Shown one piece after another: positions 7,002 through 12,459 of a stretch of 41,443 bases of DNA; the stretch's first letter is position 1, and each line of letters starts with the position of its first letter. Under the pieces are notes generated by a model that saw only the letters and a list, made by a program, of their open reading frames with translations, was not told the DNA's origin and did not search any database. The DNA comes from Nitrosomonadales bacterium (GTDB taxonomy: Bacteria > Pseudomonadota > Gammaproteobacteria > Burkholderiales > SG8-39): contig SBAS01000041.1 in NCBI GenBank assembly GCA_005240145.1, forward strand, positions 1 through 41,443. The letters run 5' to 3'. The position numbers and the translations under genes were made by a program.

Positions 7002-7644
7002 ATGGCACAACCCCAGACCCCCCCGGCCTTCTCCGAAGCGCATGCGCTTCGCCCCGTTCCCGCGCTGATTTTCGCCAGCCGCTGGCTGCAGCTGCCCCTT
7101 TACCTCGGCCTCATCGTCGCCCAGGGGGTCTACGTCTGGCTGTTCTGGCAGGAGCTCTATTAACCTCCTGTTGGCGGCCTTCGGCAACGCCAACGCCCTT
7201 GGCCACGTCATGGACGCGGTCTCCGTCGCAGGCGTGGAGCGGCCGGCCAAGCTCAACGAGACCGTGATCATGCTGGTGGTGCTGGGGCTGATCGACGTCG
7301 TCATGATCTCCAACCTGCTGATCATGGTGATCGTGGGCGGCTACGAGACTTTCGTCTCGCGCATGAACCTGGAGCGGCACCCGGATCAGCCCGAGTGGCT
7401 GTCGCACGTCAATGCCTCCGTGCTGAAGGTCAAGCTCGCCACGGCGATCATCGGCATCTCCTCCATTCATCTGCTGAAGACCTTCATCAACGCCTCGGCC
7501 TACGACGAGAAAACGCTGATCGCGCAGACGGCGATCCACATCACGTTCCTCTTTTCCGCCGTCGCGATAGCCTACACCGACCGCCTGATGCAGCCGAGCG
7601 AGAATGCCGCGCGCTCGCGCGACGGCCGCGTGCTCAACGACTGA
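7002..7644 (+). pseudogene. YqhA/TIGR00645 family membrane protein, frameshifted
   Basis: Two frames together encode one YqhA-type inner-membrane protein. The first (7002-7163) gives 53 residues with [17 protein letters not shown], matching the family N-terminus, and stops at TAA 7161-7163 just after WQELY. The second resumes one base off, from about 7162, as NLLLAAFGN, and runs through the family core ([59 protein letters not shown]) to TGA at 7642-7644. Removing one T near 7160-7161 restores a full protein of about 213 residues. This may be a sequencing error or a real recent mutation, since the rest is intact. The function of the family is not known. The fumarase start lies 13 bp downstream, within coupling distance. 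Confidence 0.8.
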
Positions 7645-7657
7645 CGGAGGCACCGGC

Positions 7658-9181
7658 GTGACCACCATTCGGCGCGAAGACCTGGTACAGAGCGTCGCCG
7701 ACGCGCTGCAGTTCATCTCCTACTACCACCCGCTGGACTACATCCAGGCGCTGGGCCGCGCGTATGAGCGCGAGCAATCCGCCGCGGCGAAGGATGCGAT
7801 CGGCCAGATCCTCACCAACTCGCGCCTGTGCGCCGAGGGTCGTCGCCCCATTTGTCAAGACACGGGCATCGTCAACGTGTTCCTGAAAATCGGCATGGCG
7901 GTGAGGTTTGATTTTTCTTCTCCCCTGGAAGACGTCGTCAATGAAGGCGTGCGCCAGGCCTACCTCGACCCTGACAACAAACTGCGGGCCTCGGTGCTGG
8001 ATGAGGCGGATTTCGGCAGGAAGAACACCCGGGACAACACCCCGGCCGTGATCAACGTGCAGATGGTTGCGGGCGACAGGCTATCGGTCCATGTCGCGGC
8101 GAAGGGCGGCGGCTCGGAAGCGAAATCCAAGTTCGTCATGCTCAATCCCTCGGATTCCATCGCCGACTGGGTCGTGAAGACAGTCCCCAGCATGGGCGCG
8201 GGCTGGTGCCCGCCCGGCATGCTCGGCATCGGCGTAGGCGGCACCGCGGAAAAAGCCATGCTCATGGCCAAGGAAGTGCTGATGGAGCCGATCGACATGG
8301 CCGAGCTCAAAGCACGCGGTCCGAGAAGCAAGCTGGAAGAACTGCGCATCGAGCTCTACGATCGCGTCAATGCGCTGGGCATCGGCGCGCAGGGCCTGGG
8401 CGGCCTGTCCACCGTGCTCGACGTCAAGATCCGCACCTATCCCGCGCACGCCGCCAATCGCCCGGTGGCGATGATCCCCAACTGCGCCGCGACGCGCCAC
8501 GCGCATTTTGTGCTGGACGGCTCGGGACCCGCGGAGTTCGAAGCGCCTTCGCTCAGCGACTGGCCCAAGGTCACCTGGACCCCGGACGCAAGTTCAACGC
8601 GGGTTGATTTGAATTCCCTGACCAAAGAAACCATTGCAAAGTGGCAGCCGGGACAGCGCCTGTTGCTGTCCGGAAAAATGCTGACCGGACGTGATGCGGC
8701 GCATAAAAGAATTCAAGACCTTTTGGACAAAAAACAACCCTTGCCCGTCGACTTCACCAATCGCGTTATCTACTACGTCGGCCCCGTCGATCCGGTGCGC
8801 AACGAGGTCGTCGGGCCCGCCGGCCCCACCACCGCGACGCGCATGGACAAGTTCACCGAGATGATGCTGGCGCAGACCGGCTTGATCGCGATGATCGGCA
8901 AGGCCGAGCGCGGCCCGATGGCGCTGGAGGCGATCAAGCAACACAAGGCCGCTTACCTGATGGCGGTGGGCGGAGCAGCCTTCCTCGTCGCCAAGGCGAT
9001 CCGGAAATCGCGCGTGCTCGCCTTCGAGGACCTCGGCATGGAGGCGATCCACGAATTCGAGGTCCAGGAGATGCCGGTCACGGTCGCGGTGGACGCGTAC
9101 GGGACTTCCGTGCACAACACCGGCCCGGCCGAGTGGTCGAAGAAGATCGTCGAGCTGAAAATTCCGGTCACGGCAGCATAA
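7658..9181 (+). CDS. fumA: Class I (iron-sulfur) fumarate hydratase or mesaconase
   Basis: A 507-residue class I hydro-lyase that interconverts fumarate and L-malate using a [4Fe-4S] cluster. The three expected cluster cysteines are present: Cys66 (ICQDTGIVNV), Cys184 (GWCPPGMLGIGVGG) and Cys276 (PNCAATRHAHFVLDGSGPAEF). GTG at 7658 is the start, with ACGGAGG (7644-7650) seven bases upstream; the open frame before it lacks such a site. Class I fumarases can also hydrate mesaconate to (S)-citramalate, as reported for Burkholderia xenovorans. The three overlapping genes downstream (importer, lyase, CoA-transferase) make that second reaction plausible here, but sequence alone cannot choose. No class II FumC is in the window. 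Confidence 0.92.
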   Translation: MTTIRREDLVQSVADALQFISYYHPLDYIQALGRAYEREQSAAAKDAIGQILTNSRLCAEGRRPICQDTGIVNVFLKIGMAVRFDFSSPLEDVVNEGVRQAYLDPDNKLRASVLDEADFGRKNTRDNTPAVINVQMVAGDRLSVHVAAKGGGSEAKSKFVMLNPSDSIADWVVKTVPSMGAGWCPPGMLGIGVGGTAEKAMLMAKEVLMEPIDMAELKARGPRSKLEELRIELYDRVNALGIGAQGLGGLSTVLDVKIRTYPAHAANRPVAMIPNCAATRHAHFVLDGSGPAEFEAPSLSDWPKVTWTPDASSTRVDLNSLTKETIAKWQPGQRLLLSGKMLTGRDAAHKRIQDLLDKKQPLPVDFTNRVIYYVGPVDPVRNEVVGPAGPTTATRMDKFTEMMLAQTGLIAMIGKAERGPMALEAIKQHKAAYLMAVGGAAFLVAKAIRKSRVLAFEDLGMEAIHEFEVQEMPVTVAVDAYGTSVHNTGPAEWSKKIVELKIPVTAA

Positions 9182-10365
9182 GCTCGAGCACTACTCGCTG
9201 GGGTCCGATCTGGGCGGTGTTCGGCGCCGGCATGATCTGCGGCGCCTACATGACCAAGGTGGCGCCGGCGCTGCCGCTGCAGCGCGCCGAACTCGGCCTG
9301 ACGCTGGTCGAGTCCGGTTTCATCGCCACAACCTTCAACGTCATCGGCGGCCTGTGCGGAGTCTTTGCCGGCACCCTCTCCGACCGCTACGGCCACCGGC
9401 GCCTCGGGCTCGCCGGACTCGCTGTTCTCGCCGCCGCGGGTGCACTTGGCGCCGCCACGGAGAGTTTTGCGCTGCTCCTGTTCACGCGCTTTCTCGAAGG
9501 CGTCGGCTTTCTCATGTTCACCGTCTCGGGTTCGGCGCTGATTGCCTCGGCCGCGGCGAATCCGCGCGAACGCGCGAAGGCATTGGGCCTGTGGGCCGCC
9601 TACATGCCGGCCGGCGGCGGGCTGGCGCTGCTCGCCGCACCGCCCTTGATCACGGCCTGGGGCTGGCGGGGATACTGGCTGGCGCTGGCAATCGCGGCGG
9701 CGGCTTCCTTTCTGCTCGCCGCGCGCTATGCCCCGTCGACCAGACACGGCGGCATCGCCTCCATGCGCCTGATCAGGGAATCCCTCGCGCAGCACGGCAA
9801 CCTCGCGCTCGCGGCGCTGTTCGCGTTCTATGTCTCGCAGTGGTCCTCAGTCATGATCTGGCTGCCGACCTTCCTCATCGACGAGCGCGGCGCCTCCGCC
9901 ACGCTCGCCGCGCTGCTCACGGCGCTGATGGTGCTCGTGAACGCACCAGGCAACCTAGCCGGCGGTTGGCTGCTCGCACACGGCGTGCGCCGCGGTCCGA
10001 TGGTGATCGCTGCCAGCGCCATCATGGCCCTTTGTTCGGCGGGCATGCTGGGACCCTTGCTGCCGGATGCCGCGCGCTACCTGCTTTGCCTTGCGTTTTC
10101 CGCCTGCGCCGGGACGATTCCTGGCGCGATCTTTTCCGGGCTCCCGGTGCACGCCAGGACGCCGCAGCACATCAGCACCGCCAACGGCATGGTGATGCAG
10201 ACCTCCCAGGCCGGGCAGTTCTTCGGCCCGATCGCGCTCGCCTGGCTCGCCTCGCACTACGGCGGCTGGGGCGCGACGTTCTGGGCCATGTTCGCTTTCG
10301 CCGCAGGTGGCGCCCTGTGCGGGCTCGCGCTGGCGCGCATCGAGCGGGATAAAATGGCGCGATGA
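9133..10365 (+). CDS. MFS transporter
   Basis: A major facilitator superfamily transporter of up to 410 residues with about 12 hydrophobic helices. The N-terminal half has the family loop SDRYGHRRLGLAG between helices 2 and 3. The central loop (ARYAPSTRHGGIASMR) is short, as in the CynX/NimT-like group. The start is uncertain: the only in-frame codons are GTG at 9133 (overlapping fumA by 49 bp and lacking a clear ribosome site), GTG at 9217 and ATG at 9232. Recognisable homology begins at about TRWGPIWAVF, before 9217, so 9133 is preferred. The stop overlaps the lyase start (ATGA at 10362-10365). The substrate is unknown; the neighbours suggest a dicarboxylic or hydroxy-acid substrate. Confidence 0.85.
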   Translation: MVEEDRRAENSGHGSISSSTTRWGPIWAVFGAGMICGAYMTKVAPALPLQRAELGLTLVESGFIATTFNVIGGLCGVFAGTLSDRYGHRRLGLAGLAVLAAAGALGAATESFALLLFTRFLEGVGFLMFTVSGSALIASAAANPRERAKALGLWAAYMPAGGGLALLAAPPLITAWGWRGYWLALAIAAAASFLLAARYAPSTRHGGIASMRLIRESLAQHGNLALAALFAFYVSQWSSVMIWLPTFLIDERGASATLAALLTALMVLVNAPGNLAGGWLLAHGVRRGPMVIAASAIMALCSAGMLGPLLPDAARYLLCLAFSACAGTIPGAIFSGLPVHARTPQHISTANGMVMQTSQAGQFFGPIALAWLASHYGGWGATFWAMFAFAAGGALCGLALARIERDKMAR

Positions 10366-11267
10366 GACAAATCCACATCCGTGAAGTCGGCCCGCGCGAC
10401 GGGCTGCAGAACGCCCGCCAGAGGATGCCCAGCGACGCAAAGAAGGCCTGGGTAAGGGCCATCGCCGAAGCCGGCGTGCCGGAAATCGAGGTCGGCTCGT
10501 TCGTGCCGCCCAAATTGATCCCGGCCATGGCGGACACAGCTGACATTGTTTCCTACGCACTGGCGCTGAAGGATCTTCAGGTAGTCGTGCTCGCGCCGAA
10601 CCTCAAGGGTTTCGAGCGCGCGCTAGCCGCAGGCGCCCACAAGGTCACTTTCCCGGTCTCGGCCAGCCGCCAGCACAGCGAGTCGAACGTGCGCATGACG
10701 CCGGACCAGATGGTCGAAGAGGTACGCAAGTGCGCGCAGCGCCCGCACCCGGGCGTCCTGGTCGAAGGAGCCGTGTCCACCGCTTTCGGCTGCACCCTGC
10801 AGGGCAACGTGCCGGAGGACGACGTGGTCCGCATCGCCGCCGCGCTGGCGGAATTCTGCGACCACGTGTCGCTGGCCGACACCGTGGGCTACGCGAATCC
10901 GGCTCAAATAAAAAGAGTTTTTAAAAAAGTAGGAAAAGTAATTGGTAGCAAGCTGAGAACCGCGCACCTGCACAACACGCGCGGCCTCGGCCTCGCCAAC
11001 GCGCTCGCCGCCTACGAGGAAGGCGTGCGCCACTTCGACAGCTCCATGGGCGGCCTGGGCGGCTGCCCGTTCGCGCCCGGCGCGAGCGGCAACGTCATCA
11101 CCGAGGACCTCGTCTTCATGTTCGAAAGCATGGGCATATCGACCGGCATCGATCTGGAACGGCTGATGGAAGCGCGCAAACTGATGGTCGCAGCCATTCC
11201 CGACGAACCCGTGTACGGTCACATGGCGCTGGCGGGCGTTCCCAAGGGGTTTCGTGCTGCCGCCTGA
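10362..11267 (+). CDS. HMG-CoA lyase family enzyme
   Basis: A 301-residue TIM-barrel lyase of the hydroxymethylglutaryl-CoA lyase family, which splits HMG-CoA to acetyl-CoA and acetoacetate. Catalytic features are all in place: GPRDGLQN with Arg12 and Asp13, the metal ligands His202 and His204 in HLHNTRG, and the mobile-loop cysteine Cys235 in GGLGGCPFAPGASGN. Its start overlaps the MFS stop by four bases, and its end overlaps the CoA-transferase by 14. Some relatives may act on related 3-hydroxy-3-methyl acyl-CoAs such as citramalyl-CoA, which would suit this operon, but that is inference. Codons 182-197 form a strikingly AT-rich patch (10905-10950, 11 G/C of 46 bases). Confidence 0.92.
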   Translation: MRQIHIREVGPRDGLQNARQRMPSDAKKAWVRAIAEAGVPEIEVGSFVPPKLIPAMADTADIVSYALALKDLQVVVLAPNLKGFERALAAGAHKVTFPVSASRQHSESNVRMTPDQMVEEVRKCAQRPHPGVLVEGAVSTAFGCTLQGNVPEDDVVRIAAALAEFCDHVSLADTVGYANPAQIKRVFKKVGKVIGSKLRTAHLHNTRGLGLANALAAYEEGVRHFDSSMGGLGGCPFAPGASGNVITEDLVFMFESMGISTGIDLERLMEARKLMVAAIPDEPVYGHMALAGVPKGFRAAA

Positions 11268-12459
11268 GCAGGGAGAGGGGCCCCTGCTTCCCCTCCAGGG
11301 TGTACGAGTCGTAGAGTTCGCGCACATGGTGATGGGCCCGAGTTGCGGCCTGGCGCTTGCCGACCTTGGCGCGGACGTGATCAAGGTCGAACCGCTCGAG
11401 GGCGACAACACGCGCACGCTGCAGGCGGCGGGCGCCGGGTTCTTCCCGGTCTTCAATCGCAACAAGCGCAGCCTCGCCGTGGACCTGAAGAAGCAGAAAG
11501 GTTTTGAAGTTGTCCTGAAGTTGATCTCCAGTGCGGATGTAGTGACGGAAAACTTCAGGCCGGGAGCGCTGGAGAAGCTCGGCTTGGGCTACAAGGATCT
11601 TTGCGCGCGGTACCCGAGGCTGGTCTACTGTTCCCTGAAGGGCTTCCTCGACGGCCCGTACCAGCAGCGCGCGGCGCTCGACGAAGTGGTGCAGATGATG
11701 GGCGGCCTGGCATACATGACCGGGCTGCCCGACCGGCCGCTGCGCGCCGGATCGTCGGTCGTCGACATCATGGGCGGTACCTTCGCCGCTTTGGGCATCG
11801 TCGCCGCGCTGCGCGAGCGCGAAACAACCGGGCGCGGACGGCTCGTGACCAGCGCCCTTTTCGAGAGCACGGCGTACCTGGTCGCGCAGCACATCGCGCA
11901 GTTCGAACTCACCGGCGAAGCACCGCCGCCGATGTCGGTGAAGCGGCCCGCCTGGGGCATCTATGACATTTTCGAAACGGCGGACGCCGACCGGCTCTTC
12001 GTGGGCGTGGTGACCGACACGCAATGGGTGATTTTCTGCCGCGAGTTCGATCTCGCGGACCTGGCGGCCGATGCACGGCTGCGCGTCAACGGCGACCGGG
12101 TCAGGGAAAGGTCCTGGCTGCTGCCGCGCCTCGCCGAAGTGCTGAAGAAATACACCAGGGCCGGCCTGGCGGCGAAATTGGAACGGATCGGCCTGCCATT
12201 TGCGCCGATCTCAAAACCCTGGGACCTGCTCGAAGACCCGCACCTGGTCGCTTCCGGCGGCCTGCTCGAAACCCGCACGCCCGACGGAAAAACCTTCCAC
12301 GCGCCAACGCTGCCGCTCTCGCTCGACGGCAAGCGCCTGCCCAAACGCAGCGATCCGCCGGCCATCGGCGAAGGCGCGCGCGAGCTGCTCGCGGGACTGG
12401 GTTATGACGCCGGGGAGATCGACGCGCTTGCCAAAGAGGGCGTGATCGCCCTCGGCTAG
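11254..12459 (+). CDS. Class III (CaiB/BaiF) CoA-transferase
   Basis: A 401-residue member of the family III CoA-transferases, which move CoA between carboxylic acids through an aspartyl intermediate. LLPLQGVRVVEFAHMVMGPSCGLALADLGADVIKVEP at the N-terminus is the family signature. Asp143 in AALDEVVQMMGG fits the catalytic aspartate, and GTFAALGIVAALRERETTGRG follows as usual. The GTG at 11254 lies inside the end of the lyase gene with AAGGGG at 11244-11249, and homology begins soon after, so this start is reasonable. Placed after a lyase of the HMG-CoA type, it probably makes that enzyme's CoA-ester substrate using succinyl-CoA or acetyl-CoA. The acid could be citramalate, HMG or itaconate. 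Confidence 0.9.
   Translation: MLPPEQGEGPLLPLQGVRVVEFAHMVMGPSCGLALADLGADVIKVEPLEGDNTRTLQAAGAGFFPVFNRNKRSLAVDLKKQKGFEVVLKLISSADVVTENFRPGALEKLGLGYKDLCARYPRLVYCSLKGFLDGPYQQRAALDEVVQMMGGLAYMTGLPDRPLRAGSSVVDIMGGTFAALGIVAALRERETTGRGRLVTSALFESTAYLVAQHIAQFELTGEAPPPMSVKRPAWGIYDIFETADADRLFVGVVTDTQWVIFCREFDLADLAADARLRVNGDRVRERSWLLPRLAEVLKKYTRAGLAAKLERIGLPFAPISKPWDLLEDPHLVASGGLLETRTPDGKTFHAPTLPLSLDGKRLPKRSDPPAIGEGARELLAGLGYDAGEIDALAKEGVIALG

Follow-up and report, generated by a model that had tools for sequence, protein, structure and literature searches.

What do the four overlapping genes at positions 7,658 to 12,459 of SBAS01000041.1 do together, and on which acid? The contig comes from the Nitrosomonadales bacterium assembly GCA_005240145.1, and its full 41,443 nucleotides are referred to here as the window. 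The genes encode a class I fumarase (FUM), a major facilitator superfamily transporter (MFS), an acyl-CoA lyase of the 3-hydroxy-3-methylglutaryl-CoA (HMG-CoA) lyase (HMGL) fold (LYA), and a class III CoA-transferase (COT). The initial annotation read them as a potentially complete route from mesaconate through (S)-citramalate to acetyl-CoA and pyruvate, with HMG breakdown as the alternative. We propose, with about even confidence, that LYA and COT cleave a tertiary 2-hydroxy-dicarboxylate in two steps, (R)-citramalate ((R)-2-methylmalate) being the most likely substrate. COT would act as succinyl-CoA:(R)-citramalate CoA-transferase, LYA as (R)-citramalyl-CoA (2-alkylmalyl-CoA) lyase, and MFS may import the acid. 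The pair would have been added in this lineage behind a YqhA-class I fumarase operon located between acsA and prpE; FUM would be the tricarboxylic acid (TCA) cycle enzyme of the cell, co-expressed with the pair and probably outside its route. For this system, we infer the substrate, its handedness, the CoA donor and the transport.

The families and overlaps given in the initial annotation are all found (Table 1), as is every residue that it had looked for. FUM carries both class I domains and the cysteines C66, C184 and C276, which align to 5l2r, a class I fumarase structure, and which we take to be the cluster ligands. LYA carries R12, D13, H202, H204, C235 and N244 (Arg, Asp, His-x-His, Cys loop, and Asn), and Asp143 of COT, a PF02515 protein, aligns with the catalytic Asp of YfdE and SUGCT, in keeping with class III. 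The catalytic roles of these residues in the three proteins are presumed. In Pfam at E <= 0.001, LYA matches PF00682 alone and not the CitE/HpcH fold (PF03328). Its AlphaFold 2 (AF2) model (predicted local distance difference test, pLDDT, 91) shows the HMGL TIM-barrel fold and superimposes on human HMG-CoA lyase 2cw6 with Z 39.7 (290 residues aligned, root-mean-square deviation 1.9) and on 6nds with Z 38.6. The latter is the best solved relative by sequence (40% identity), and its title describes the HMG-CoA lyase of Acinetobacter baumannii in complex with CoA and the C5 diacid 3-methylmalate.

Judged by sequence, the canonical HMG-CoA lyase of this genome is a second enzyme, encoded on contig C58, and LYA is not canonical. 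On the NCBIfam model for HMG-CoA lyase (cut-off 246), the C58 lyase scores 471 bits and LYA 285. The stretch around the C58 gene, which includes a 675-amino-acid biotin carboxylase and an enoyl-CoA hydratase, would serve leucine breakdown. A role for LYA as sole HMG-CoA lyase of the genome is thus ruled out. No leucine-degradation neighborhood surrounds LYA in the window, where its neighbors are FUM, MFS and COT. In a tree of 89 rows (three divergent rows dropped beforehand; own_C58 and L064_5102 are one protein), LYA falls in a 53-row clade with support of 100/99. The 20 HMGL rows (19 distinct proteins, defined from similarity and PDB names) occupy a separate branch (96/89) that also contains L103, and the Smithella rows and the 6nds group lie outside both. 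A Tyr at the position of human Tyr167, which we take to contribute to HMG binding, is present in all 20 HMGL rows and in none of the 53 rows of the LYA clade (Ala137 in LYA). The position of human Asn140 is occupied by an Arg in 49 of 53 LYA-clade rows (Arg111 in LYA), in six of the nine 6nds-like rows, and in two of the 20 HMGL rows. Human residue numbers were taken from the aligned R41M entry.

Handedness separates this reading from the initial annotation. The hand of (S)-citramalyl-CoA is that of (R)-HMG-CoA, and HMGL enzymes of the human type cleave (S)-HMG-CoA (PMC6689899). Because HMGL enzymes take (S)-HMG-CoA, the same hand as (R)-citramalyl-CoA, a lyase of this fold should take (R)-citramalyl-CoA. 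A chain that begins with the (S)-citramalate made by a FUM-type enzyme therefore joins enzymes of opposite hand, unless LYA has switched. An (R)-citramalyl-CoA lyase (EC 4.1.3.46) and a matching CoA-transferase (EC 2.8.3.20) are listed activities (PMC8307300). The linked CoA-transferase to be expected for EC 4.1.3.46 was found: COT accompanies LYA in 17 of 17 related loci and, at 50% identity or more (50-62%), in 26 of 31 loci outside the lineage.

These 31 loci (L040-L050, L056-L063, L114-L121, L124, L126, L079, and L080) are all of the outside-lineage clade rows in the tree. They were fetched from search returns rather than drawn at random, with eight regions opened of 517 plasmid records that had a match; L041 is a near-copy of L044, and contig ends cut several loci short. 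Within a class-wide sample, at least 11 of 369 genomes, the present one included, carry a lyase of the LYA clade (best-scoring loci placed). One Roseomonas plasmid (L060) has a LYA-clade lyase next to a different type of CoA-transferase (34% identity).

Some neighbors of the outside copies would fit C5 chemistry. LeuCD-type hydratases convert (R)-citramalate, citraconate and 3-methylmalate into one another, and LeuC and LeuD genes lie near LYA in nine of the 31 loci (L041, L044, L049, L050, L057, L059, L116, L117, and L118); the carriers are Alphaproteobacteria and three genomes from the class to which the window belongs. LeuC and LeuD genes also adjoin the lyase in L081, a member of the 6nds group. 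Six of the nine, namely Sphingomonas pJE1 (L057), an Acidiphilium plasmid (L059), and four Hyphomonadaceae loci (L041, L044, L049, and L050), add an isochorismatase-type hydrolase and two deacetylases that are distantly PuuE-like (NCBIfam scores far below cut-off). This cluster of COT, LYA, hydrolase, deacetylases and LeuCD looks like a pathway for the breakdown of methylated cyclic imides, which would run from imide to amide, citraconate, (R)-citramalate and the CoA ester, ending in acetyl-CoA and pyruvate. Other copies are flanked by IclR regulators and by TTT, TRAP, CitMHS or MFS transporter genes. As separate observations, pJE1 carries a second LeuCD and a methylisocitrate-lyase-like gene, and the window's own genome has a second LeuC/LeuD pair at C78 (L144:4618-6682, G000:C78), unlinked to LYA; its LeuC scores over cut-off and is roughly as far from one plasmid LeuC type as from the other.

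Taken together, the separate clade, the lack of the HMGL Tyr, the C58 lyase, the 3-methylmalate in 6nds and the LeuCD neighbors somewhat favor citramalyl-CoA over HMG-CoA as the substrate type. Several observations weigh against our proposal. LYA passes the cut-off of the NCBIfam HMG-CoA lyase subfamily model, and 6nds is itself named an HMG-CoA lyase and was placed outside the LYA clade. Loss of the Tyr is not clade-specific, as all nine 6nds-like rows lack it and so does L103, which branches within the HMGL part of the tree, and the Arg111 equivalent recurs in the two HMGL rows noted above. The LeuCD linkage belongs to a neighboring subclade that groups weakly (97/73) with that of the window, and a LeuCD neighbor is proof of neither chain length (C5) nor (R) handedness. 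In L029, L040 and L080, the pair has an enoyl-CoA hydratase next to it or close by, which would fit HMG-CoA or mesaconyl-CoA chemistry too. Finally, the linkage of FUM, LYA and COT is strictly kept within the lineage and may mean a real metabolic tie.

That linkage was followed in 17 related betaproteobacterial loci from metagenome-assembled genomes (MAGs), with LYA 65-91% identical to that of the window, and in a set of 41 genomes; the two samples overlap and their counts are kept separate. FUM lies upstream of LYA in all 15 MAG loci that have upstream DNA (L027 and L032 end before it), and COT lies downstream in all 17, four of them cut by contig ends. The order FUM-LYA-COT is more than chance, so the objection of rarity in relatives that the initial annotation had raised against itself fails; the kept order may reflect a single origin. 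MFS intervenes between FUM and LYA in 12 of 16 testable MAG loci. LYA directly follows FUM in L025, L026 and L033, and a GNAT-family gene (L028:4520-5479) takes the place of MFS in L028. Further insertions are an acyltransferase-type gene within the operon in L023, L031, L036 and L005 (family scan on L023 only, L023:7389-7973) and an enoyl-CoA hydratase between LYA and COT in L029 (L029:8899-9693). Among the 41 genomes (own included), 13 carry a close full-length LYA, and a FUM match shares its contig in 12 of them (G007 by a FUM fragment only); the remaining one, G002, has a contig that breaks off within MFS. A 14th, G013, has an LYA fragment at a contig end, again behind FUM and MFS. The MFS of L023 (L023:6214-7380) is 61% identical to that of the window, versus 91% for LYA and 87% for FUM, and may have been either swapped or faster-evolving.

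FUM itself has a wider distribution. A long-form class I fumarase is present in 34 of the 41 genomes (own included), plus one fragment, and eight family members (G015, G017-G020, and G022-G024; some incomplete) carry FUM without a close LYA. For example, G018 reads acsA, FUM, HbpS, prpE, without MFS-LYA-COT; the contig of G001 ends inside MFS, so the presence of LYA was not judged there. Four genomes (G028, G032, G039, and G040) have a class I fumarase and no FumC over cut-off, and the class I enzyme would therefore be their TCA cycle fumarase. The window's genome also encodes a FumC over cut-off, at C126, which rules out FUM as its sole fumarase. Because FUM is found order-wide and stands alone in eight family members, MFS-LYA-COT look added behind an older, resident fumarase in one sub-lineage. 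The dedicated first step that the initial annotation had assigned to FUM is not supported by this distribution, nor by the outside loci, where a fumarase like FUM is near LYA in none of the 31. A side activity of FUM as mesaconase is possible. Overall, the citramalate idea was probably right in chain length and probably wrong in its fumarase step and its handedness.

If the cleavage of (R)-citramalate is extended to the relatives, we tentatively suggest that a scattered, partly plasmid-borne clade of "hydroxymethylglutaryl-CoA lyases" is composed of (R)-2-alkylmalyl-CoA lyases that, together with their own COT clade, form a catabolic cartridge. Its substrates would be citraconate, 3-methylmalate or (R)-citramalate, or else methylated imides where PuuE-like deacetylases and an isochorismatase-type amidase join the pair. 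The host would supply importer and hydratase, and here the cartridge would have been built into a TCA fumarase operon. If true, a clade labeled HMG-CoA lyase in public records is misnamed, and Proteobacteria have a mirror-image counterpart to the itaconate/(S)-citramalate route that has escaped notice. No account of such an (R)-citramalate cleavage pair was found in the available text of the open-licence literature searched.

Among the alternatives, the one that survives best, although unlikely, is that the substrate of the pair is a different 2-hydroxy acid, such as a larger 2-alkylmalate, a citrate-like tricarboxylate, or malate. TTT and CitMHS transporter genes adjoin several copies, and the Arg at the human Asn140 position could bind a further carboxylate; on the other hand, neighbors vary among subclades, making one special substrate for all unlikely, and isocitrate lyase is present in the genome, so that glyoxylate does not depend on cleaving malyl-CoA, and a replacement of the glyoxylate shunt by this cleavage is rejected.

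We consider it improbable that the full chain of the initial annotation operates, with FUM hydrating mesaconate to (S)-citramalate, COT forming (S)-citramalyl-CoA, and an LYA of switched hand splitting it. Such a chain would account for the FUM-LYA-COT order, which is kept in each of the 15 MAG loci where it could be tested, including those that lack MFS or have another gene in its place, and class I fumarases form (S)-citramalate from mesaconate (PMC4682846). However, the hand of the HMGL fold points to (R) (PMC6689899), and the occurrence of FUM across the order, in eight family members without LYA and in no outside locus near LYA, argues against a shared route. The genome also holds a better candidate for the (S) hand at C99 (L138:2831-8184, G000:C99), where the tripartite tricarboxylate transporter genes TctC and TctA precede a class III CoA-transferase and a lyase of the CitE fold, the fold known for (S)-citramalyl-CoA; the closest PDB relative of this lyase is CLYBL. 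C99 is likely a second 2-hydroxy-acid cleavage system, predicted to be better suited to (S)-citramalate, and a comparable second pair of CoA-transferase and lyase is mentioned for Cupriavidus necator (PMC12290011).

Breakdown of HMG (or 3-methylglutaconate), with COT as a SUGCT-like transferase and LYA as a true HMG-CoA lyase, is doubtful to a similar degree. It draws on the subfamily score of LYA, on the resemblance of COT to succinate-HMG CoA-transferase structures (third best among solved structures, after 4ed9 and 10uh), and on three copies, outside or related, that have an enoyl-CoA hydratase gene close by, and it is opposed by the canonical lyase at C58, the absence of Tyr167 across the LYA clade, the misfit of LeuCD neighbors with HMG, and the presence of 3-methylmalate in 6nds. 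Reverse use of the pair for isoleucine synthesis was dismissed, a threonine ammonia-lyase over cut-off being present.

Table 1. Coordinates of the operon genes and of two diagnostic LYA codons in the window
Feature	Positions	Strand	Details
FUM, class I (Fe-S) fumarate hydratase	7658..9181	+	GTG start, 507 aa (amino acids); PF05681 2e-91, PF05683 1.7e-84
MFS, major facilitator transporter	9133..10365	+	GTG start, 410 aa; PF07690 1.6e-38
LYA, HMGL-fold acyl-CoA lyase	10362..11267	+	ATG start, 301 aa; PF00682 1.6e-46
COT, class III (CaiB/BaiF) CoA-transferase	11254..12459	+	GTG start, 401 aa; PF02515 1.9e-108
LYA Arg111 codon	10692..10694	+	aligned with human Asn140
LYA Ala137 codon	10770..10772	+	aligned with human Tyr167

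The four frames are intact, without internal stops, and overlap successively by 49, 4 and 14 bp. The GTG start of FUM is supported by relatives with ATG at the same place, and the 49-bp overlap depends on a putative GTG start of MFS sited within conserved FUM codons. None of the 25 NCBIfam matches listed for MFS (of 27) reaches its cut-off. Thirteen bp ahead of FUM, a UPF0114 (YqhA) gene (7002-7644) is split over two frames near 7160; it is unbroken in L034, and the frameshift in the window is either a real pseudogene or an assembly error.

Among known systems, mesaconate use in Burkholderia xenovorans reportedly combines a class I fumarase, an itaconate CoA-transferase and an (S)-citramalyl-CoA lyase. 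It shares with the present locus a class I fumarase, a CoA-transferase and a lyase that yields acetyl-CoA and pyruvate, but its lyase belongs to the unrelated CitE-type family and has the hand opposite to that proposed for LYA. With canonical HMG-CoA lyases (human 2cw6 and the genome's own C58 enzyme), LYA shares the TIM barrel and the metal and catalytic residues; it differs in clade, in lacking Tyr167, in the Arg at human Asn140, and in score (285 versus 471 bits). The A. baumannii enzyme 6nds is closer, having in common with LYA the motifs NxRMT, HNTRGLGL and GGCPFAPGA and the missing Tyr, yet it is only 40% identical and falls outside the LYA clade. A counterpart in proposed activity is the (R)-citramalyl-CoA lyase and succinyl-CoA:D-citramalate CoA-transferase of Chloroflexus aurantiacus, in which the lyase is HMGL-like and the transferase is class III. 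Both systems would pair a CoA-transferase with an HMGL-type lyase on one 2-hydroxy acid; LYA-COT is operonic with a fumarase and MFS here, and elsewhere it is found with LeuCD, IclR regulators and carboxylate transporters.

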